Positions 16,584-25,314 of a stretch of DNA of 26,883 nt are shown in pieces. The stretch comes from a virus, in IMG/VR virus record IMGVR_UViG_3300028550_000266, positions 1-26,883 of that record; one strand, 5' to 3'. Under the pieces are notes generated by a model. It was not told where the DNA came from. It saw only the letters and a list, made by a program, of their open reading frames with translations, and did no database searches. The position numbers were made by a program, and so were the translations under genes. The stretch's first letter is position 1. Each line of letters starts with the position of its first letter.

Positions 16584-18328
16584 TAGATACCCATCTCTTG
16601 GGCCAGCATCAGCTGCTCTTGGTTAATAGCTTCAGCTTCTTGCATCTGCTGTTGTGTCTCTAGTTGCTCAGAGATTGAGATATTCTCAGAGAACAACTCA
16701 GGTTCACCCAACTCTTCTGACAAGATACGAGCAAACTCTTTACCTGACAAGTGAGCAGCCACGGTAGGGTCTGACAACTTGATCTGATACAACTGTGTAA
16801 GGTTCTGGATACGACGGGCACGTTCAGCAAAGTGACGAGCACCTACAGGTACGATCTTACCTTTAGCTGTGATGTCATCCTTAGTGATAGTCTGGAACAG
16901 TACAGCACCCGTTGCGTCATCCATAACACGAATGGTATCGGACATATTCATGTAACGACGAGACACTTCAAGCATAGCATTCAGGATTGGCTCAAGGAAC
17001 ACACGTTCGAAGTGGGCTGTCTTATGCTCAAAGATACGAGAGGCTGAGTTCTGAAGTGACTGTACCTCAAAGGCTGTCTTCTCGCCAGGAGTGCGGATAC
17101 CCATAGCTTGGCGGGGTGCGCCAGCCATCTCTTCCATCTTGTCTTCTAAGAGCCTAATTTGCAGGTCTGCTTGCAATGCTGTGGCATCAGGTGCCATGTA
17201 TCCTACGTCACCCTCTTCACCTAGGTAGATACGACCACCAGGTTCGAAGTCAAAGTCCTCAACGTCACCACGGATCTTGAGCATTGGATATGCGATCTGA
17301 TCGAACACGTCAGACTTCAAGTTCTCTAGGTGGTCAATACGATACTGCATACCAACCAAGTTGTCCAATGGACCCATGGCATATAGGTTGTCAGGGCGTG
17401 GACGCCAGCCAGCTTGGAAGATAGGAGCACTACCTAACCAGCTAGGATTTTCTTCGTTAGCCATAACATAAGCACGATCAACAACTGTAATGACACGGTT
17501 CTTAAGTAGCTTACCGTTCTCAGTATCGTAGTAGTCACCGTAGAAGGTTAGTACCTCAACGTAGTCTGACTCATAGTACTGTTGGATAGATGTAAAGCCA
17601 TCAGCAATGTAACCATCAGCTTTGTCAAACACGCCGTCAGAGGCACGTACAGACGCCCTAGCACCCATCATCTTAGAGAAGACACCTTCCATGTAATCCT
17701 TAGATGGATCACTGTCGATCATGTCACGGATCTCTCCGAGGGTCTTAATGGACTTGATGATCTTAGGGGACTTCTCAAAGCTAGGTGCTGTAGGGTTAAA
17801 GCAGAGATCGTATGGTGATATACGAACAACCTTAGGGCCTACGTAGTTGACAACTAGATCACCAGCTTCTTTAACTTGGTAGTTGTCTTCCCATGTAACA
17901 GTAGCAAAGCAGTTACCGTACTGGATGTAATCATAGAGTAGATCACTGGAGATATTAACGAAGTCAGACTGACGAACCTTGTTGTCCATGTAGGACTGTA
18001 TAACTGTACGTTTAGCTTTAGTGTTAGCATCCCGTGACTCAGCTTCCCAACGCATCCACTTAGCTTGTGGAAACAATGTAGCAAAGTAGTTAGCATGGAG
18101 GTTGTCCATGATCTGTGTGAGCTTAGGAGTAGTTGTACTGTTAGACCACGGAAGCATAGCATTCTTAGTTGTGCTTGTGTCTGTAGCATACAGGTAGTTA
18201 CGTAACTCTTTCCATTCCTCAACTTTTGTCTGACGAAGATTAGACCATTCACGCCAACGGTTAGACACCTCTACAGCCATTGAATCTGGACCTAGCAGGT
18301 ATTCTAATTCTATTGTCTCACCAGCCAT
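16583..18328 (-). CDS. Portal protein (head-tail connector), T7-like
   Basis: The 581-residue protein is close to T7 gp8 (536). The N-terminal part has WREWSNLRQTKVEEWKELRN and PKLTQIMDNLHANYFATLFP. The core includes YGNCFATVTWEDNYQV, VRISPYDLCFNPTAPSFE and PLDNLVGMQYRIDHLENLKS. The C-terminal part has MGIRTPGEKTAFEVQSLQNS and ends with a long Gln/Glu-rich helix (EQLETQQQMQEAEAINQEQL). 'D-x-L-x-A-x-Y-F-x-x-L-F-P' and 'R-T-P-G-E-K-T-A-x-E-V' are hallmarks of T7-type portals. Twelve copies form the DNA channel at one vertex. The ATG overlaps the large terminase stop by one base, behind AGAGGAG. Confidence 0.92.
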   Translation of the reverse strand: MAGETIELEYLLGPDSMAVEVSNRWREWSNLRQTKVEEWKELRNYLYATDTSTTKNAMLPWSNSTTTPKLTQIMDNLHANYFATLFPQAKWMRWEAESRDANTKAKRTVIQSYMDNKVRQSDFVNISSDLLYDYIQYGNCFATVTWEDNYQVKEAGDLVVNYVGPKVVRISPYDLCFNPTAPSFEKSPKIIKSIKTLGEIRDMIDSDPSKDYMEGVFSKMMGARASVRASDGVFDKADGYIADGFTSIQQYYESDYVEVLTFYGDYYDTENGKLLKNRVITVVDRAYVMANEENPSWLGSAPIFQAGWRPRPDNLYAMGPLDNLVGMQYRIDHLENLKSDVFDQIAYPMLKIRGDVEDFDFEPGGRIYLGEEGDVGYMAPDATALQADLQIRLLEDKMEEMAGAPRQAMGIRTPGEKTAFEVQSLQNSASRIFEHKTAHFERVFLEPILNAMLEVSRRYMNMSDTIRVMDDATGAVLFQTITKDDITAKGKIVPVGARHFAERARRIQNLTQLYQIKLSDPTVAAHLSGKEFARILSEELGEPELFSENISISEQLETQQQMQEAEAINQEQLMLAQEMGI

Positions 18329-19863
18329 TAGGAGGCTCCTCTAAATCTGTTATTAGCCCAAACAATATTAGAGCTTTTGTCTCTTCTGACATTCTTGAAA
18401 GGCTTGACAGCAATGTCGATAGCTGAAGCAAGAGCATCCTTAATATCGTCGTGAGGTGGATTACGTGACTGAAGTTCTTCTTCTAAGGTTTGAATGTTAC
18501 CACCACGGTAGTGCCATATTTGTAAGTTGTCATAACGAGGTTCTAAAGTAGCTGAGATACGTTCGTCTTTATTACCTTGGTATTTGTTAGGTCTGAACTC
18601 ATCAACACTGATGGCAAGTCCATGTTGTTTGATTAACTCTTTAAGCTGCTTAACGATGGCCTGTTGACCTACTGTAACCTCGGCACGTAACTTACGGAAT
18701 GACCACTTAGTTGACAGCTGAAGAATGTGTTCGAAGTATTCAGTGATACGATCAGTACGGAACCGATCAATATCTAAGACATAGATGTTATTCTGTGAGT
18801 CAACACCAATGACAACAATAGCTGTGTAGTCAGCCTTCTTAGATAAACTAAAAGCAAAGTCGATTGATGCAAAGACGTTAAGCTTTGAGTCCTTGTAGAA
18901 CCAGTGACCGTTCTCTTCCTTAAGAAGCTTACGTTCGTAGTACTGGAACCTACTGCTTTCGATTGGTACGTTGTCAGGATCTGATGGATCGTTGTAGTAC
19001 TGTGCTCGGAACTGACCCTTGTCTAGGTACTGTCCACGTTTCTTAGCTAGTACCTTGATGTCGAACCCGAACCACTTACCATCTCTACGTTGACTACGAG
19101 GCCATAACATCTCACCTGTTCCATCTCCTCTGTCCTCAACTGGACGTTCAAAGATTTCATAGATGTTATCTTCACCTATCTTGTTGCCGTCATCATCGTA
19201 CAAGTCTTCTTCCATTTGTAGAAGATCGTTGTATAGATCGACAGGATGGTAACGTGTACCTACTACCCACTCCCTAGCTTCTGCACCCTCAATGGATGAC
19301 AAAAGAGAGTATTGACTCTTAACCTTGTTACGGCCCTCACCTGTGTAAGCATTCTCGTAAACAACAATGTCGTCTAGAACTGCAATGTCACAGTGCATCC
19401 CTGTAAGAGAAGTAGTGAGACCACCAGTAAAGACAGATGGGTCACGGACCTTCTCAGCCTTACGTAGTGGGTGGTCCAACATAATCTCTGAGTTAGTCCA
19501 CCGTGTACGTTTACCGTCTTCTGGGTGTACGTGATCTGGCCAGTAACGACTATAGATCTCAGAGGTTAGGATACTCTTAATGAACCCTAGTTGTTTCTCT
19601 GCAAGGTTAGCCGTAGCTGAGATGTAGAGGATACGAAGGGTTGGGTCTTTGGTTAGTTCCCAAGCAACACGATAAGCAACTAAACGAGACTTACCGTGGT
19701 CACGAGGGAAGAGGAGTAGCTGGTGAGACTTAGCATCTTCATGGCCCCACCAGTTACACACGTCTTCATGACACTGCCCTAGAACTTGTTCTGGAGCTAT
19801 TAACTTAATAAAAGTCACCAAGTCATTCTCAGCAGCTTGTCTGATTTGTTCTAATGTTGTCAT
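18328..19863 (-). CDS. terL: Terminase large subunit (packaging ATPase/nuclease)
   Basis: The 511-residue protein has the features of a large terminase. A Walker A-type loop lies at 53-59 (PRDHGKS). Walker B is CDIAVLDD at 158-165. A motif III-like segment lies at about 199-206 (WVVGTRYH). In the RNase H-like nuclease domain, the first acidic residue is Asp335 (FASIDFAFS) and the last acidic cluster is HDDIKDALA at 471-479. It pumps DNA through the portal and cuts concatemers. T7 gp19 has 586 residues. The ribosome-binding site is weak (GTGG before TACAATG), but no other Met lies near the N-terminus. The gene is directly followed by portal, and separated from the small subunit by the whole fibre cluster. 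Confidence 0.93.
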   Translation of the reverse strand: MTTLEQIRQAAENDLVTFIKLIAPEQVLGQCHEDVCNWWGHEDAKSHQLLLFPRDHGKSRLVAYRVAWELTKDPTLRILYISATANLAEKQLGFIKSILTSEIYSRYWPDHVHPEDGKRTRWTNSEIMLDHPLRKAEKVRDPSVFTGGLTTSLTGMHCDIAVLDDIVVYENAYTGEGRNKVKSQYSLLSSIEGAEAREWVVGTRYHPVDLYNDLLQMEEDLYDDDGNKIGEDNIYEIFERPVEDRGDGTGEMLWPRSQRRDGKWFGFDIKVLAKKRGQYLDKGQFRAQYYNDPSDPDNVPIESSRFQYYERKLLKEENGHWFYKDSKLNVFASIDFAFSLSKKADYTAIVVIGVDSQNNIYVLDIDRFRTDRITEYFEHILQLSTKWSFRKLRAEVTVGQQAIVKQLKELIKQHGLAISVDEFRPNKYQGNKDERISATLEPRYDNLQIWHYRGGNIQTLEEELQSRNPPHDDIKDALASAIDIAVKPFKNVRRDKSSNIVWANNRFRGAS

Positions 19864-19897
19864 TGTACCACGGTTATGTTACAGGTGTCAAGGAGTA

Positions 19898-20194
19898 TTA
19901 TTGTACGAATACGTCTTTGGAACTAAAGTTCCTGTTGTCTGAGATACGTATGACAACACTTCCTGATGCGTACCCTGATACAGTTGCACGGTAGTACACC
20001 TCCTCAGCATCAAACCCTACGCCTTCGTAGTTAGATGTAAAGGCATCTGTGTCAAACCATGTGCTGTTATCCCAGCTACGTTGCATAGTAACTGTGGCTG
20101 ACCACGTACCTGACAAAGATACATTGAAGTGACCTACTACCTGTAGACCAGCTGTGCTTGTGTTAGAACCTAATGTTTCTGTTACAGCAACCAT
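19898..20194 (-). CDS. Small beta-rich virion protein (fibre/decoration type)
   Basis: The 98-residue protein contains VVGHFNVSLSGTWSATVTMQ, RSWDNSTWFDTDAFTSNYEG, EEVYYRATVSGYASGSVVIR and ISD. The 'GxFNVSLSGTWxATVTxQRSxDxxTW' pattern is widespread in small proteins of marine phages and predicts an immunoglobulin-like or jelly-roll beta sandwich that would sit on the particle surface. The start is fixed by GAGGGAG eleven bases upstream. The gene lies at the end of the fibre cluster just before the large terminase. It is probably structural; which part of the virion it belongs to cannot be said. Confidence 0.78.
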   Translation of the reverse strand: MVAVTETLGSNTSTAGLQVVGHFNVSLSGTWSATVTMQRSWDNSTWFDTDAFTSNYEGVGFDAEEVYYRATVSGYASGSVVIRISDNRNFSSKDVFVQ

Positions 20195-20196
20195 GA

Positions 20197-20454
20197 TTAA
20201 ACTCCCTCAGACTGAGCAGCTGCATACGCAGCCTTAGCAACATCAGTGAAGATTGTAGTTGCAATCGCAGATACGTCAGCATCCTCTGCTGTAAGATCAG
20301 CATCAGGTGTCAGCACATGGCGGTGGAATGAACGAGAAATCTCTACGTCATCCTCTGCAATGATTGTTGCTGTTCGTACCTGCACAATAGGATAACCTGC
20401 TGCAAGGTGAAGAACCTCGATCTTGTCGTTGATAGTTGTTTTAGTTAGGGCCAT
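20197..20454 (-). CDS. Conserved small phage protein (KTTIxDKIEVL type)
   Basis: The 85-residue protein starts at ATG 20454 (MALTKTTINDKIEVLHLAAG), which has an ideal AAGGAGATAAAA leader. An in-frame ATG at 20481 has no such site and would place most of the overlap in the previous gene. The middle reads VRTATIIAEDDVEISRSFHR, and the end is an Ala-rich helix. Small proteins with 'TKTTIxDKIEV' and 'VEISRSFHRHVLxP' occur next to tail genes in many marine phages. The function is unknown; a small tail or fibre accessory protein is likely from context. Confidence 0.85.
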   Translation of the reverse strand: MALTKTTINDKIEVLHLAAGYPIVQVRTATIIAEDDVEISRSFHRHVLTPDADLTAEDADVSAIATTIFTDVAKAAYAAAQSEGV

Positions 20455-20578
20455 TTTTATCTCCTTGGCTGGACTGTCCACGCACTAGGCGCATAATTGT
20501 TTCTGCTAGAATATCAGGGCGAGGGTTTCTATCACCACTGTATTCTTCACGGATTAGCTTTTCGATTTCTTTCGTCAT
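20441..20578 (-). CDS. 45-residue micro-gene with overlaps on both sides
   Basis: A short ORF of 45 codons starts at ATG 20578, with an ATGA overlap with the stop of the 506-residue fibre-type gene, and ends at TAA 20443-20441, overlapping the start of the next gene by 14 bases. The product begins MTKEIEKLIREEYSGDRNPR and continues PDILAETIMRLVRGQ, a short charged helical protein. AAGG lies three bases before the ATG. Without this gene there would be a 120-base gap in an otherwise gap-free operon, and the ATGA junction matches the other junctions here. No family is recognised. Confidence 0.6.
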   Translation of the reverse strand: MTKEIEKLIREEYSGDRNPRPDILAETIMRLVRGQSSQGDKNGPN

Positions 20579-22095
20579 ACCTTGAACCACCCTGATATAC
20601 GAATCTTGGCCCCATTAATCTGAGACACGTTAGCAATTGTGTTAATAGCACTGTCTTGGATTTCTCTAAATACAATGTTTCCATCTGTACCTATCTCTGC
20701 AACGACATTGAAGTCTCCTGCTTGAAGGTCAAAGTCAGAAACAACAGGAGTGCCAAATACTGCACTTTCAGTTGGAGTAAAGCCATGCCCCCGAATGTAA
20801 AAGTTATTTCCAGAAGTCATTCCAGAGATGCTTATATTAGAGAAAGACAAGTTGACCCAGACCATGTTACCAATTTTGGAATACTGAGCAGTGTCTGTTG
20901 TTGAGCTTACGTTACCTCCAGAAGATGCGTCAAAGATAGAAGCTGTCCACGTTCCAGTAACAGGGGTGAACTCTAGCTGGTTAGATGCGTTAATCTTTGC
21001 ACCTTCTGTGAAGGTATCTGTCGCACCGTTGTAGTGACCAAAACGTAAGACCTCACCGTCAGGTGCTGCTAGGTCATTATTGCCTTGGGAAATAAATGCT
21101 GGCTTGTTTCCGTCACCGTAGGCTGTCACAGAAACCTTAGCACCTAGAACCCAGATACGATTGACACGACTACCAGCATTCCCAGAGGCAATGGAGCAAG
21201 CAAGCATTGGTTGACCACCATGCCAAATCCAACCAGCACCCTCTAGTTCGTATGCTGTACCAGCACCATCACCTTGAGCCTTTGTCTCGCCTACAGTAAA
21301 GTCATCAATCTCTTCTACGAACTCACCTGTGACAGTGTAAACAAACACCTTCAGTGTGTTGCCAGTAGCAATGTTGCCTGTGAAAATGTAAACATAAGAA
21401 CCATCACAAGCCGTGCTTTGTAGTGGGTAGGCCCCAGTGTCTAAGTTAAACGTCCAAGAGTAGGTCTGTTGTGTCGAGTAATCACCAGTACCACCGTTCA
21501 TCAGAGTTGCTGTCTCGAATACTTTGACAAGGTTGGTGTTTGAACCACTATACTCAGTAACGAGGTAACGACCATCCAAAGAGATACAGGTTGATGCACT
21601 CCCTGTTTCACCACCTGTAGTTTCAGCATCAGTAAAGACTTGAAACTGCTGCACGTTAGAAACAGTAAGTTCAGTTCCAGCACCATCAGCAATTTGGAAC
21701 CGTTTAATGTAACGGGCCTGATTAGTTACAGCCTCATTCTCACCTGTCCAGAACCAACGAGCACCTGACTTATCCCAAGAAATCTCTAACTCTTGGTGGC
21801 CTAGTGTAGTTAGAGGCGTAGAGTTGTAACGGTAGCTAGTTTGGGTTCGTCGTCCATCAGCCTCAAACTTGTTCAAAACACAAGTATCAGGATCACCAGT
21901 TACGTGGAGAGTAAAGAGTTCATTGGTGTAGGGATCAGAGACAAAGCCTTGAACTACGTTACCAGACCCTGTGCCTTGCTTGGTTAAGTTAAACCGTTCC
22001 AGTGCAGCCTGTGGGGCATTGATGACAGAAAGGGAATGATGGGCTTTAGGTGTAAAGCCAGTAACCATATTCTGATTTACTTTAGTAAGGGCCAT
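20575..22095 (-). CDS. Fibre/receptor-binding type protein with propeller-like repeats and C-terminal tip domain
   Basis: The 506-residue protein starts at ATG 22095 (MALTKVNQNMVTGFTPKAHH) behind AAAGGTAG, eleven bases after the previous stop. An in-frame extension to 22173 runs into the upstream gene and is rejected. The central part (about 40-330) has repeats such as SLDGRYLVTEYSGSNTNLVK and ACDGSYVYIFTGNIATGNTL, each ending in a KVF strand. This suggests a beta-propeller. Residues 380-506 (from TGTWTASIFDASSGGN) match the C-terminal domain of the 193-residue neighbour (EGTWSPVISDATSGGN) and have nearly the same length. Such 'GTWxPxIxDASSGG' domains are common at the tips of marine phage fibres. 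Host recognition is the likely role. Confidence 0.82.
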   Translation of the reverse strand: MALTKVNQNMVTGFTPKAHHSLSVINAPQAALERFNLTKQGTGSGNVVQGFVSDPYTNELFTLHVTGDPDTCVLNKFEADGRRTQTSYRYNSTPLTTLGHQELEISWDKSGARWFWTGENEAVTNQARYIKRFQIADGAGTELTVSNVQQFQVFTDAETTGGETGSASTCISLDGRYLVTEYSGSNTNLVKVFETATLMNGGTGDYSTQQTYSWTFNLDTGAYPLQSTACDGSYVYIFTGNIATGNTLKVFVYTVTGEFVEEIDDFTVGETKAQGDGAGTAYELEGAGWIWHGGQPMLACSIASGNAGSRVNRIWVLGAKVSVTAYGDGNKPAFISQGNNDLAAPDGEVLRFGHYNGATDTFTEGAKINASNQLEFTPVTGTWTASIFDASSGGNVSSTTDTAQYSKIGNMVWVNLSFSNISISGMTSGNNFYIRGHGFTPTESAVFGTPVVSDFDLQAGDFNVVAEIGTDGNIVFREIQDSAINTIANVSQINGAKIRISGWFKV

Positions 22096-22105
22096 GATTC
22101 TACCT

Positions 22106-22687
22106 TTATGTATGATAAGTGATAGTGATCCAAAGATCAGCAGTACCACTATTAAACTGAGAGCTGTCTGCATTAATATAAACGCCGCCAGAGATAACTT
22201 CTTTCAGCTTAATGCGAGAAGCACCGTTATCAATCGAAGGCACAATGCCAAGAGAGTTTGTAGCCGCAGTAAAGTAAGACATAGTAGCTATACCCTCCCC
22301 TTCACCATCTGCTGAATAGGGGACACCCTGCACATAGATATTTCCTGATCCCATGCCAGTTGTGTTCATGTTTAACAATCGAGCTTTGAGGTGCACCAAG
22401 TTACCTACTTTTGTGTAGGTAGCATAAGCAACAGTAGCTGTCCCTGTGTTGCCGCCAGATGTAGCATCAGAGATTACGGGAGACCACGTCCCCTCTTCAT
22501 AGTCATCAAACAGTTCACTTGTACCACTGCCAGAGGTGGCAGAGAAGTCGATGCCTTTGCCTGATGTGCCAATGACAATATTGCCAGCACTAGATGTTAT
22601 GTTTCCAGATGCAGTAACTGTTGTTGCATCCAAGGTATTGAATGTTGGGTTGCGGCCAAAGATGCCGCCCTGTTGTTTGATTGTCAT
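22106..22687 (-). CDS. Small tail fibre/tip protein (GTW-type C-terminal domain)
   Basis: The 193-residue protein begins MTIKQQGGIFGRNPTFNTLD, an N-terminus often seen in small marine podovirus fibre proteins. It continues with strand-rich VTASGNITSSAGNIVIGTSG, then GIDFSATSGSGTSELFDDYE at 45-64. From residue 66 to the end is the GTW-type domain (EGTWSPVISDATSGGN), homologous to residues 380-506 of the next gene's product. The site GAGGGTAG fixes the start. It is likely a short fibre or tip protein attached to the tail. The 'GTSELFDDYEEGTWxP' pattern is shared with many fibre proteins, probably spread by module exchange. Confidence 0.82.
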   Translation of the reverse strand: MTIKQQGGIFGRNPTFNTLDATTVTASGNITSSAGNIVIGTSGKGIDFSATSGSGTSELFDDYEEGTWSPVISDATSGGNTGTATVAYATYTKVGNLVHLKARLLNMNTTGMGSGNIYVQGVPYSADGEGEGIATMSYFTAATNSLGIVPSIDNGASRIKLKEVISGGVYINADSSQFNSGTADLWITITYHT

Positions 22688-22696
22688 TTTCTACCC

Positions 22697-23947
22697 TCAC
22701 AAATATCCAGTAATTTCTATTAGTAAACGACCTGCACTGTAGGCTGCGTTTGATGTTCCTTGGCCAACTAAATACAAGTATTGATTAGCAGCTATTGTAT
22801 TACCTCTAGTAATCGTTCCTACAGCTAAAGTCCCACTGTTAATAATTTGAGTTTCAGTCAAAGCTGAAATAGCTGTATCCTCAACACCTGTGGCTTCAGT
22901 TGCAGAATACAAATCAATATCAGCATCTCCACCAACAGGGGCTTCTAAGCAGGTTATTGAAACACCTAGAATTGTTCCGTTATTTGCTGCTGTAATTTGA
23001 CCAAGATAAGCTGCACCCGAACCATTTTTGCCTATAATATCACCAGCAGTACCACCTGACTGTAATCCAGTTAGGTCCAACAAAATTGTAGTTGTAACTA
23101 TGTTATTACTAGCAATGGTAGACGTTTTAAATATTGAGTTTGTAACTGGGGAAATACCAACGCCAGGTGACAACTCAGTGACGGATGGAGAAAGTTGTGT
23201 AATACTACTTACTGAACCACTCGAAATAGTAACATTACCAAATGTAAAAAAGTTACCTGTGACTGTACCTGTAATTAAATACGTTCCAGCAGGGACATAA
23301 ACAGCAGATAAACCAGAGGCTGAGTTGGCAGCAGTAAAGGCAGCAGCATCATTGGTTGAGCCATCACCGACAGCACCGAAGTCTTTGACCGATACAGTCT
23401 CTTGCAGCTTAACTTGGGCTGTGCTATCTATAGCCCCCGCACCACCTTGGTTGTAAGATACATTAGTTGCAGGGGTTGTTCCCGTTAGAAGACTACGAAA
23501 TACCTGTACTTCAATAGCTGAGTTCAAAGGTGGTGCTGTATCAAATGTAAGTGCTGTAGTTGTTACACTATAACCAGCCTTATTCTGATAGACACCATCA
23601 ATGAAGACACCAGTATGGTCTTTTATCTGAGGTGCATAGGAAAGTGTAAAGGTTTTTGTGCTTCCATTACCTGTAAACTGGTTTGTAACAACAGAAGCCC
23701 CAGTTGCTGTTAGACCTGTAGGCCTTACAATTGAACCTGCAATAGTTAACGATTGAACTGCAACATCACGACCATTAAGAATATCGTTGTTGTTCATGTC
23801 GAGGTCAGCACCCATAGCATTAGGGGTACTACCATCTAATGACAAAGTATTGTCGAACCCTGTCTGTAGGTTCTCGAAGTTATTGTTTAGTGCCTGACGA
23901 CTATAATAGCCTGAAGCAATAGTTGTAATATCTGGCTTCTTTGCCAT
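22697..23947 (-). CDS. Tail fibre protein with pectate-lyase-like domain
   Basis: The 416-residue protein has three recognisable parts. Residues 1-58 (PDITTIASGYYSRQALNNNF, then a SLDGSTPNAMGADLDMNNND motif) form a virion-attachment region often found at the N-terminus of phage fibres. Residues 75-155 form a beta domain with FTLSYAPQIKDHTGVFIDGV. Residues 187-225 carry VKDFGAVGDGSTNDAAAF and AVYVPAGTYLI, the start signature of Pectate_lyase_3 beta-helix domains, as in tailspikes. The protein is rather short for a full tailspike: only one or two helix turns can be read before a different C-terminal domain (about 260-416). It may therefore be a truncated or rebuilt spike, or the first element of a branched fibre. 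The start has AAAGGAT. Confidence 0.85.
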   Translation of the reverse strand: MAKKPDITTIASGYYSRQALNNNFENLQTGFDNTLSLDGSTPNAMGADLDMNNNDILNGRDVAVQSLTIAGSIVRPTGLTATGASVVTNQFTGNGSTKTFTLSYAPQIKDHTGVFIDGVYQNKAGYSVTTTALTFDTAPPLNSAIEVQVFRSLLTGTTPATNVSYNQGGAGAIDSTAQVKLQETVSVKDFGAVGDGSTNDAAAFTAANSASGLSAVYVPAGTYLITGTVTGNFFTFGNVTISSGSVSSITQLSPSVTELSPGVGISPVTNSIFKTSTIASNNIVTTTILLDLTGLQSGGTAGDIIGKNGSGAAYLGQITAANNGTILGVSITCLEAPVGGDADIDLYSATEATGVEDTAISALTETQIINSGTLAVGTITRGNTIAANQYLYLVGQGTSNAAYSAGRLLIEITGYL

Positions 23948-23978
23948 GGTGTTTTATCCTTTACCTGTGGTGGATATA

Positions 23979-24509
23979 TTAATTTAGTTTATTTAAGCCG
24001 AGGCGTTCAGCATCTTCTGACAAAAGAGACAAGGCTTCCTTGTTCATATCGTCATCTTCTTTAGCCTTGAGCTTACCTTTAGCTACTGAAGCTGTGTCTT
24101 TATCTAACCAACCTTTGTCTAACAGGAGCTTAGCTGCACTGAAAGAACTACGACCACCCGTCTTCATCTCTTCTGCAATGGCTCGGATAGCTTCGGACTT
24201 AACCTTAACTTCTACTTCCTTACGCCAACGAGCTACGTGTACCTTGATGGTAGGAGCATTAGAGATCGTCTGCCATACATCCCAGGAACCAAAGACAGCC
24301 TGAGAGAACTCATACTCTGTAGGGTCAGATGGAGCCATAGACAGGAATAACTTCTGTAATGACAAGAAGTGTTGACCGTGAGCTTCTATGTCATCACTCT
24401 TAAACGTGAACAATGACAGTGACGGATCATCGTAACTAAGTTCATAGAACAAACTTTTAGTACGAGGCTTACCGTTGCTTCCTTTAAGTTGGCTAGTCGA
24501 GAACATCAT
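23979..24509 (-). CDS. terS: Terminase small subunit
   Basis: The 176-residue protein opens MMFSTSQLKGSNGKPRTKSL. Its middle is helical (EFSQAVFGSWDVWQTISNAP, VARWRKEVEVKVKSEAIRAI), the segment SSFSAAKLLLDKGWLDKD comes next, and the C-terminal tail is acidic/Lys-rich. 'SAAKxLxxKGW' followed by a Lys-rich linker is the pattern of small terminase subunits of marine T7-like phages. The subunit binds viral DNA and loads the large subunit. It is the first gene behind the leftward promoter (leader about 35 bases). A second Met directly after the first (24506) is an alternative start. No good ribosome-binding site is visible, so expression may be low. The call is from family resemblance and first-gene position. 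Confidence 0.75.
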   Translation of the reverse strand: MMFSTSQLKGSNGKPRTKSLFYELSYDDPSLSLFTFKSDDIEAHGQHFLSLQKLFLSMAPSDPTEYEFSQAVFGSWDVWQTISNAPTIKVHVARWRKEVEVKVKSEAIRAIAEEMKTGGRSSFSAAKLLLDKGWLDKDTASVAKGKLKAKEDDDMNKEALSLLSEDAERLGLNKLN

Positions 24510-24550
24510 GGTGGGTTACATCAAAGTCCTGATAGTTATATTTAAAGAGA

Positions 24551-24579
24551 AGTATAACAGGGCTAATTTCTGGTGTCAA
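24551..24579 (-). promoter_or_regulatory. Leftward sigma-70-type promoter of the virion operon
   Basis: On the minus strand, TTGACA (24579-24574), 17 bases, TATACT (24556-24551). TGT directly before the -10 gives an extended -10 (TGn). Upstream on the minus strand is AT-rich (AAAATAAATATTAGTTG), like an UP element. Start of transcription should be near 24544, about 35 bases before the small terminase gene. It lies back to back with the rightward promoter, their -35 boxes 36 bases apart. Confidence 0.85.
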
Positions 24580-24587
24580 CAACTAAT
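24574..24587. repeat. Left copy of a 14-bp inverted repeat carrying a -35 box
   Basis: TGTCAACAACTAAT on the plus strand here is the exact complement of ATTAGTTGTTGACA at 25244-25257. Each copy contains the TTGACA of a promoter that points away from the control region. The copies are 670 bases apart. Confidence 0.9.
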
Positions 24588-24615
24588 ATTTATTTTAATT
24601 ATACTCCTGAAAGTA

Positions 24616-24644
24616 TTGACACAGGTTAAAAGAATTGGTATAAT
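24616..24644 (+). promoter_or_regulatory. Rightward perfect-consensus sigma-70 promoter
   Basis: TTGACA (24616-24621), 17 bases, TATAAT (24639-24644): both boxes and the spacing are perfect consensus. TGG before the -10 adds an extended -10 element. Transcription should start at about 24651 and run right into a 195-base non-coding stretch that ends in a terminator. Confidence 0.92.
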
Positions 24645-24650
24645 TTCATT

Positions 24651-24846
24651 ACTAGCCGCCAGGCGGTATATATACTATACATGTGTATACTAAGGTATCT
24701 ACACTCTTGTAGTAAGCATAACCGTCTTAGCTATTCCTTGATGACAAATACCATAACGGTTATTTACCCATCAAGTAACATACATACAGATCTGTTTCAG
24801 ATTCTACACTGGCTCTCCTTGGTTTAATTACCTTGGGGAGCCTTTT
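24651..24846 (+). ncRNA. Predicted structured non-coding leader or small RNA (about 195 nt)
   Basis: This is the expected transcript between a perfect promoter and an intrinsic terminator. It has no ORF with a ribosome-binding site. In order it shows CCGC-CAG-GCGG (24656-24666), TATACA-TG-TGTATA (24677-24690), a hairpin CTACA-CTCT-TGTAG (24699-24712), two interlocked inverted repeats, a hairpin GATCTG-TTT-CAGATT (24789-24803) and the terminator stem. The interlocked pair is ATAACCGT 24718-24725 with ACGGTTAT 24756-24763, and CTTGATG 24737-24743 with CATCAAG 24769-24775. Arm order A-B-A'-B' is that of an H-type pseudoknot. It may be an attenuated leader of the rightward genes or an independent RNA. 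No known RNA family is recognised, and expression is inferred. Confidence 0.6.
24811..24846 (+). terminator. Intrinsic terminator after the non-coding transcript
   Basis: GGCTCTCC (24811-24818) pairs with GGGGAGCC (24835-24842) in an 8-bp stem with one G-U pair, followed directly by TTTT (24843-24846). The loop is long (16 bases), with GG/CC that could extend the stem. The T run lies only on the plus-strand side, so it stops rightward transcription. Confidence 0.75.
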
Positions 24847-24928
24847 GCATTCCGTAGAAAATACTTAGAAAATGTTATGGTGCAATGTACATATAGAAGG
24901 ATACCCCGTGCACCCCCGTGTTGCTCCA

Positions 24929-24942
24929 TTTGTGATCACATA
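24929..24942. promoter_or_regulatory. Palindromic site 1, TTTGTGATCACATA
   Basis: The 14-base sequence contains the perfect 10-bp palindrome TGTGATCACA (24931-24940). An identical 14-mer lies at 24981-24994. Centre-to-centre distance is 52 bp, close to five helical turns, so two bound dimers would face the same side. Probable operator for a dimeric regulator. Confidence 0.6.
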
Positions 24943-24980
24943 AAGCATGGGGGGTGGGGCATTTGCTGTGAGATTATCCT

Positions 24981-24994
24981 TTTGTGATCACATA
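24981..24994. promoter_or_regulatory. Palindromic site 2, TTTGTGATCACATA
   Basis: This is an exact second copy of the 14-mer at 24929-24942, with core TGTGATCACA at 24983-24992. A weaker relative (CTGATCACTG) lies at 25163-25172. Two identical perfect palindromes so close together are unlikely by chance in non-coding DNA. Confidence 0.6.
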
Positions 24995-25078
24995 TGTATA
25001 TAAGTAAATGCTTATGTACCTGCATGATTGACTGGGCAATACACCATAAGCTTCCCTTGCACAGCTATCCTTATGTAA

Positions 25079-25114
25079 TACCTTGGCTATTCCCTTGGCT
25101 TGTACCTTGGCACA
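25079..25114 (+). repeat. Three iteron-like repeats, CCTTGGC every 12 bp
   Basis: CCTTGGC occurs at 25081, 25093 and 25105, within the three 12-mers TACCTTGGCTAT, TCCCTTGGCTTG and TACCTTGGCACA. The period is exactly 12 bases. Related CCTTGC (25055) and CCTTGG (in the terminator) occur nearby. This may be a protein-binding array of the iteron kind. Confidence 0.6.
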
Positions 25115-25243
25115 TCCATCACGTTATGATGACACAATACATATGGTTACATATTACCTTAACTGATCACTGATTGTACTAATGTTACCTTGTCATACCC
25201 CTTGTTTATATGGTTGATTGAAATTAATTGTATATTTCTTTAA

Positions 25244-25257
25244 ATTAGTTGTTGACA
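25244..25257. repeat. Right copy of the 14-bp inverted repeat carrying a -35 box
   Basis: ATTAGTTGTTGACA on the plus strand, exact inverse of 24574-24587. It supplies TTGACA to the putative rightward promoter at 25252. Confidence 0.9.
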
Positions 25258-25280
25258 TACTGATTTGTTATTGTCATGTT
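25252..25280 (+). promoter_or_regulatory. Putative rightward promoter of the right-hand genes
   Basis: TTGACA (25252-25257), 17 bases, CATGTT (25275-25280). The -10 matches TATAAT at only three of six places, but includes the key A and last T, and TGT before it gives an extended -10. The upstream ATTAGTTG is identical to that of the leftward promoter. The start of transcription would be near 25287. Confidence 0.5.
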
Positions 25281-25314
25281 GTTTGCAGAACGAAACAAAC
25301 AATGGATCAAAACA

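Follow-up and report, generated by a model that had tools for sequence, protein, structure and literature searches.

A conserved promoter-terminator unit next to the predicted packaging site of marine cobaviruses is a putative small-RNA gene

The pR'-tR' unit of phage lambda makes the 194-nt 6S RNA. The phiOR promoter of T7, which is read by the phage RNA polymerase, is located near the right genome end and points at the terminal repeat. The prohead RNA (pRNA) of phi29 consists of about 174 nt and is encoded 147-320 bp from one genome end (PMC11476376). Here, we analyzed a 26,883-nt stretch of viral DNA (IMG/VR record IMGVR_UViG_3300028550_000266), which is called the window throughout and for which a self-contained transcription unit making a structured RNA and no protein had been proposed, with a decoy or an attenuator sensing host state among the suggested functions. 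Our sequence comparisons indicate that this unit is a phage RNA gene, apparently undescribed, which about 69 related phages keep with promoter and terminator despite sequence turnover. Literature searches in incomplete libraries yielded no description of an RNA at this place, and the words promoter and non-coding are absent from the one cobavirus paper searched for them (PMC6775973).

Source phage, genome ends and flanking promoters

The source phage, a marine cobavirus, is Veravirus-like (Zobellviridae) and close to Roseobacter phage CRP-5 and Lentibacter phage ICBM2; CRP-5 (genus Veravirus, Cobavirinae, Zobellviridae) was the only phage record with DNA similar to the window. The source phage belongs to the T7 supergroup, does not carry an RNA polymerase of its own and has a large terminase (TerL) with a match to the T7-type nuclease domain. 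Relatives of the gene to the left of the RNA unit (23979-24509) were found in 92 phage records and in 188 IMG/VR stretches. The homologue of this gene is located directly upstream of the large terminase gene in the three other Zobellviridae examined (CW02, T5S1, Klyazma) and because of this position the gene may encode the small terminase. A fold search of its product for the small-terminase fold gave no significant match (model pLDDT 74, pTM 0.55). Unlike in other Zobellviridae, in which the two genes are adjacent, a tail-spike-like gene and others (18328-24509) separate the possible small terminase gene from the large terminase gene in the window. When bacterial genomes were scanned with the neighboring protein, a single weak match was obtained, which was located in a metagenome-assembled genome, and thus there is no prophage context.

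The genomes of ICBM1, ICBM2 and ICBM3 end in short direct terminal repeats of 159-173 bp, as determined from PacBio reads (Bischoff and co-workers, PMC6775973). The annotated ICBM2 repeat begins with ATTGTACATACAGCAGGCTACCCCC and the window has AATGTACATATAGAAGGATACCCC from position 24884, where the direct terminal repeat of the window phage is predicted to start. Because of this match, the window should span a joined end, which consists of the right end with the RNA unit, the repeat and the left end with the early arm. The packaging-site motif AGAAAATGTTATGGTGC/AATGTACATATAGAAGGATACCCC (24867-24907, no strand assigned) was defined by homology to the mapped ICBM2 repeat start and by its conservation in the family. 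Before and across the cut, the motif GAGAAAATnTTnnGTnGCATTGTACAT...CCCC is kept in nearly all relatives and marks the start of the terminal repeat across Cobavirinae; it is likely to be the terminase recognition and cut site. Weaker forms of it occur in Siovirus and in the phages PS32B.1 (Vibrio) and Klyazma (Klebsiella); the motif was noted in the window and in L231, L234, L078 and L082. The RNA unit ends about 37 nt before the right terminal repeat and reads towards the DNA end of the linear genome; in relatives the corresponding gap measures 25-130 nt (median about 40 nt). Within the predicted terminal repeat, TCCNTTTGTGATCACATA is present in two near-identical copies (24925-24942, 24977-24994), which are 52 bp apart and contain the palindrome TGTGATCACA.

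Two additional promoters flank this region. On the minus strand, a divergent late promoter (TTGACA-N17-TATACT with extended -10; 24551-24579) reads into the late genes, and a leftward promoter with 10-12 matches of 12 is present here in 85 of 87 relatives. Beyond the repeat, there is a candidate early-arm promoter on the plus strand (TTGACA with a weak -10; 25252-25280), which shares with the late promoter the 14-bp sequence ATTAGTTGTTGACA. The two copies are exact and lie on opposite strands (24574-24587 for the late, 25244-25257 for the candidate early promoter), and the sequence upstream of the RNA-unit promoter differs from them. The early promoter-like TTGACA site occurs in the window and in its closest relatives, and some groups have no clear early promoter.

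The RNA unit and its conservation among relatives

The TTGACA-N17-TATAAT promoter with an extended -10 (TG before the -10) that had been claimed for the unit was located on the plus strand at 24616-24644 with a predicted start near 24651. No other such match occurs in the window, where 0.04 would be expected by chance. The intrinsic terminator downstream of it was confirmed at 24811-24846 (plus strand; hairpin GGCTCTCC..GGGGAGCC followed by TTTT, -20.7 kcal/mol) and its stems covary in 33 relatives; a simple consensus scan of the window did not include it among the sites listed. In the two closest relatives, which are the two sharing the RNA body, stops or frame shifts interrupt the sole long internal frame (48 aa, 24681-24827). 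Since this frame is broken in both of them, a small protein encoded by the unit was rejected, and this finding agrees with the original prediction that there is no credible gene between promoter and terminator.

RNA folding and a covariance search had been suggested as checks of the proposed structure. The predicted 198-nt transcript folds at -58.7 kcal/mol and is more stable than shuffled sequences (z = -4.3, none of 200 shuffles as good); without the terminator the z-value is about -2.8. The covariance search matched no Rfam family (4227 families, Rfam 15, E up to 1 over 24500-25300), there was no tRNA in the unit, and a corresponding Rfam search of 20 related loci gave no family match either. 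The arms and small hairpins named in the original prediction were all found in place, but the A-B-A'-B' pseudoknot built from them did not hold. Its four arms are present, but arm A (ATAACCGT in the window) is not conserved and minimum-free-energy folding prefers a nested hairpin. The body of the window RNA is common to only two relatives, L092 (same contig as L002) and L175 (same contig as L003). When we searched them for compensatory changes in the four arms, arm A was mismatched in L175 (ATAAACAG vs ACAGTTAT, non-pairing) and missing from L092. A pseudoknotted RNA was therefore rejected as not supported, and the comparison with only two informative relatives is a weak test, which goes against it. 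In its place, the minimum-free-energy fold has a hairpin CTTGATG/CATCAAG with a nested inner helix (24737-24775, plus strand). The outer helix is kept and the inner one is taken from the minimum-free-energy structure of the window, so that the RNA is described here as carrying hairpins without a supported pseudoknot. The small hairpin CTACA-CTCT-TGTAG (24699-24712, plus strand) is identical in L175 and absent in L092. Pairing of an upstream CCAAGG with the CCTTGG of the terminator, which was spotted by eye as a possible antiterminator, was discarded, as it is absent in several groups (for example L007 and L016).

For comparison, 89 non-redundant intergenic regions were collected and 87 of them were scored, two Siovirus regions being left out. 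A 12/12 promoter is found at this place in 64 of the 87 relatives and an 11/12 promoter in nine more, and the spacer bases of the promoter and the RNA body vary freely. A TTGA promoter combined with a terminator below -12 kcal/mol is present in 69 of 87 relatives. Their predicted RNAs measure 107-264 nt (median 203), and the RNA body is conserved in neither length nor sequence. Covariation of the terminator stems was strong in a set of 33 distinct sequences, with 81.8% of the cells paired and 49 of them double-changed; none of 500 shuffles reached this level and the slid controls were clearly worse. Outside the window, the advantage of the RNA folds over shuffles is mild (mean z -1.1; z below -2 in 13 of 60). 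In the distant CRP-4/L058 group, the promoter is weaker and a clear terminator is missing. In the sister genus Siovirus there is no outward promoter and the unit is absent, and no convincing outward promoter was found in Klebsiella phage Klyazma and Vibrio phage PS32B.1. Since Siovirus and these two other Zobellviridae lack the unit yet keep the packaging motif, the unit appears to be an accessory gene. It is considered real because about 69 related phages keep it although most of its sequence has changed. With promoter and terminator kept in relatives and no conserved frame between them, the self-contained, terminated non-coding unit that had been predicted stands.

Three elements are shared by the RNAs. 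The 5' stem-loop GCCGC-CAG-GCGGU (24655-24667, plus strand) recurs here in relatives with other stem sequences. Such stem-loops are more stable than shuffles (mean -6.4 vs -4.7 kcal/mol, p<=0.05 in 14 of 44 distinct sequences), and that of the window is not significant alone (p 0.2). Because the sequences compared are related, these data provide moderate support. At about +20, there is an AT-rich element, TATATATACTATA (24667-24679, plus strand), and TATACTATA occurs in the whole window only here. The window and CRP-5 each have a single TATASTATA, which is located at this element in both cases. A shorter form of the TATAGTA/TACTATA element is found near +20 in 40 of 56 units, and the 42 nt that follow contain it in 2 of 56. 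Several relatives have at their left end a palindrome close to TGTTATACTATAACA with a core similar to the +20 element (about 255-300 bases past the cut site in L108, L117, L135 and L045, at 147 in L079), which is a possible operator common to both genome ends.

The third element is a 3' motif, GGACAnGTYCAGATYC, whose form in the window is CAGATTCTAC (24798-24807, plus strand). Roughly half of the units carry it on the RNA strand as GGACA[AC]GTYCAGATYC, usually 48-88 nt upstream of the T-run, and in the others it is missing or altered. L022, L023 and ICBM2 carry 2-3 copies. The motif is slightly more unpaired than the rest of the RNA (mean percentile 0.62). When the 5' hairpin and the 3' motif were used as scan patterns, promoterless loci were retrieved as well, apparently as chance matches. 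Part of the motif (GACACGTTC; with AGATT in L122 and L124) recurs in one group of relatives (L122, L124 and L126), where it lies at the left end of the genome, about 215-250 bases past the cut site and on the same strand. A function as seed for phage mRNAs was rejected: the complements examined fall inside coding genes, and consistent complementarity to the motif was not found at any phage gene start. For example, the complement in the adaptor gene of G004 can be explained by the protein sequence. The motif was also considered as CcrM methylation site (GANTC) and rejected, since this site is often but not always intact. GANTC, the CcrM site of Alphaproteobacteria, is depleted in the window (53 vs about 99 expected) and in all loci of relatives collected at that stage of the analysis (628 vs 1538 expected), and the sole GANTC between 22096 and 26459 is at 24800, inside the 3' motif.

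Possible functions of the unit

The existence and conservation of the unit, the absence of a conserved protein and the position at the genome end are well supported by these comparisons, and we infer transcription as predicted, stability of the RNA and action in trans. Our tentative first choice, which we give nearly an even chance, is a dedicated gene for a stable small RNA that is specific to the Veravirus-like cobavirus lineage and acts via a short motif. This explanation fits because the promoter is near-invariant, the terminator covaries, the 5' hairpin recurs, a 3' motif is present and the body is free to change. Counted against it are the same variable body, the mild folds outside the window and the fact that the motif is absent or altered in about half of the units. 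The gene would be flanked by the late promoter on one side and the packaging site on the other, at the right genome end, and host RNA polymerase with the housekeeping sigma factor would initiate at the near-perfect constitutive promoter. Transcription would yield about 195 nt of RNA (relatives: 107-264 nt) and end at the intrinsic terminator just before the terminal repeat. The 5' stem-loop and the terminator hairpin would protect this RNA, and through its 3' motif of the GUCCAGAUUC type it might act in trans on a protein or an RNA of the host. An alternative view of the terminator is that it protects the packaging site.

The main rival holds that transcription matters and not the RNA. As a host-polymerase counterpart of T7 phiOR, the promoter would open the DNA, either at the right end or at the concatemer junction, so that replication can start or the terminase can load, and the terminator would keep the polymerase off the packaging site. 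We consider this scenario rather unlikely, although the position favors it: in a T7-supergroup phage that has no RNA polymerase of its own, a strong promoter at the right end faces the terminal repeat. The flanks of the unit are AT-rich (GC 0.30-0.36 vs 0.43 for the window), the RNA body would be free to vary and repeated 3'-motif copies could be iteron-like. However, the terminator halts the polymerase 25-130 nt short of the repeat, and neither the 5' stem-loop nor the 3' motif would be required. Siovirus, Klyazma and PS32B.1 keep the packaging motif without such a unit, and its absence from the sister genus Siovirus argues against an essential role in replication or packaging. Moreover, the four-fold-site skews of both CRP-5 arms are alike on the coding strand, which gives no sign of an origin at the end.

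An attenuator similar to lambda pR'-tR' appears distinctly less probable. Here, a short RNA would normally be terminated and a phage factor would allow read-through over the joined ends into the early arm. The dimensions of the unit are the same as those of the lambda 6S RNA unit (194 nt), the -10-like TATAGT/TATACT in the early transcribed region might act as a sigma-dependent pause, and the early arm is downstream in concatemers. In the linear genome, however, only the terminal repeat is located downstream, so that read-through to early genes would be confined to concatemers or circles. No antiterminator was identified and the downstream genes are early, which is the wrong temporal order. 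An early-operon leader or attenuator was rejected as main role, since in linear DNA the unit is found at the opposite end and since, in the window group, the early arm possesses a promoter-like site of its own.

There is a small chance that the RNA, or its transcription, directly recognizes, protects or processes the genome end in a phage with an ordinary nuclease-type terminase. To our knowledge, such a role has not been described for terminal-repeat podophages relying on host RNA polymerase. A packaging RNA, which would be made at the packaging end and form part of the motor, resembles the phi29 pRNA in size and genome-end location, but we regard it as very improbable, considering that there is neither an Rfam match nor a conserved core structure, that the large terminase matches the T7-type nuclease domain and that relatives package without the unit. 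An accidental or decaying combination of a strong promoter and a hairpin, for which only the variable RNA body speaks, is hardly credible because it is contradicted by the comparative data (promoter conservation, terminator covariation) and by the rarity of such promoters.

An untranslated RNA unit that dozens of phages keep despite sequence turnover would offer a way to study how phages lacking an RNA polymerase of their own influence host transcription, replication or DNA packaging. The cultivated members ICBM2 and CRP-5 make it testable. In addition, the conserved motif beside the cut site provides a sequence rule by which the genome ends of cobavirus-like contigs can be located.

Comparison with known systems

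Like lambda pR'-tR', the cobavirus unit combines a strong constitutive promoter, an untranslated RNA of about 200 nt and an intrinsic terminator near joined genome ends, and there is a -10-like sequence in the early transcribed region. In contrast to lambda, the genes downstream are early and not late, no Q-like protein was identified and read-through is hypothetical. With T7 phiOR it shares a promoter near the right end of a related podophage that faces the terminal repeat. However, the cobavirus promoter would be read by the host polymerase and the terminator would stop transcription before the repeat. The phi29 pRNA is likewise untranslated, has a similar size and is encoded near one end of the genome, but there is no match in sequence or structure, the cobavirus terminase is of the nuclease type and the unit is absent from close relatives that package DNA. 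As in phage small regulatory RNAs, there are an own promoter, an intrinsic terminator with a U tract, a 5' stem-loop and a short conserved motif. The cobavirus RNA is predicted from sequence and is not in Rfam 15. Taken together, the cobavirus unit appears to belong with the phage non-coding RNA genes, at an unusual address.
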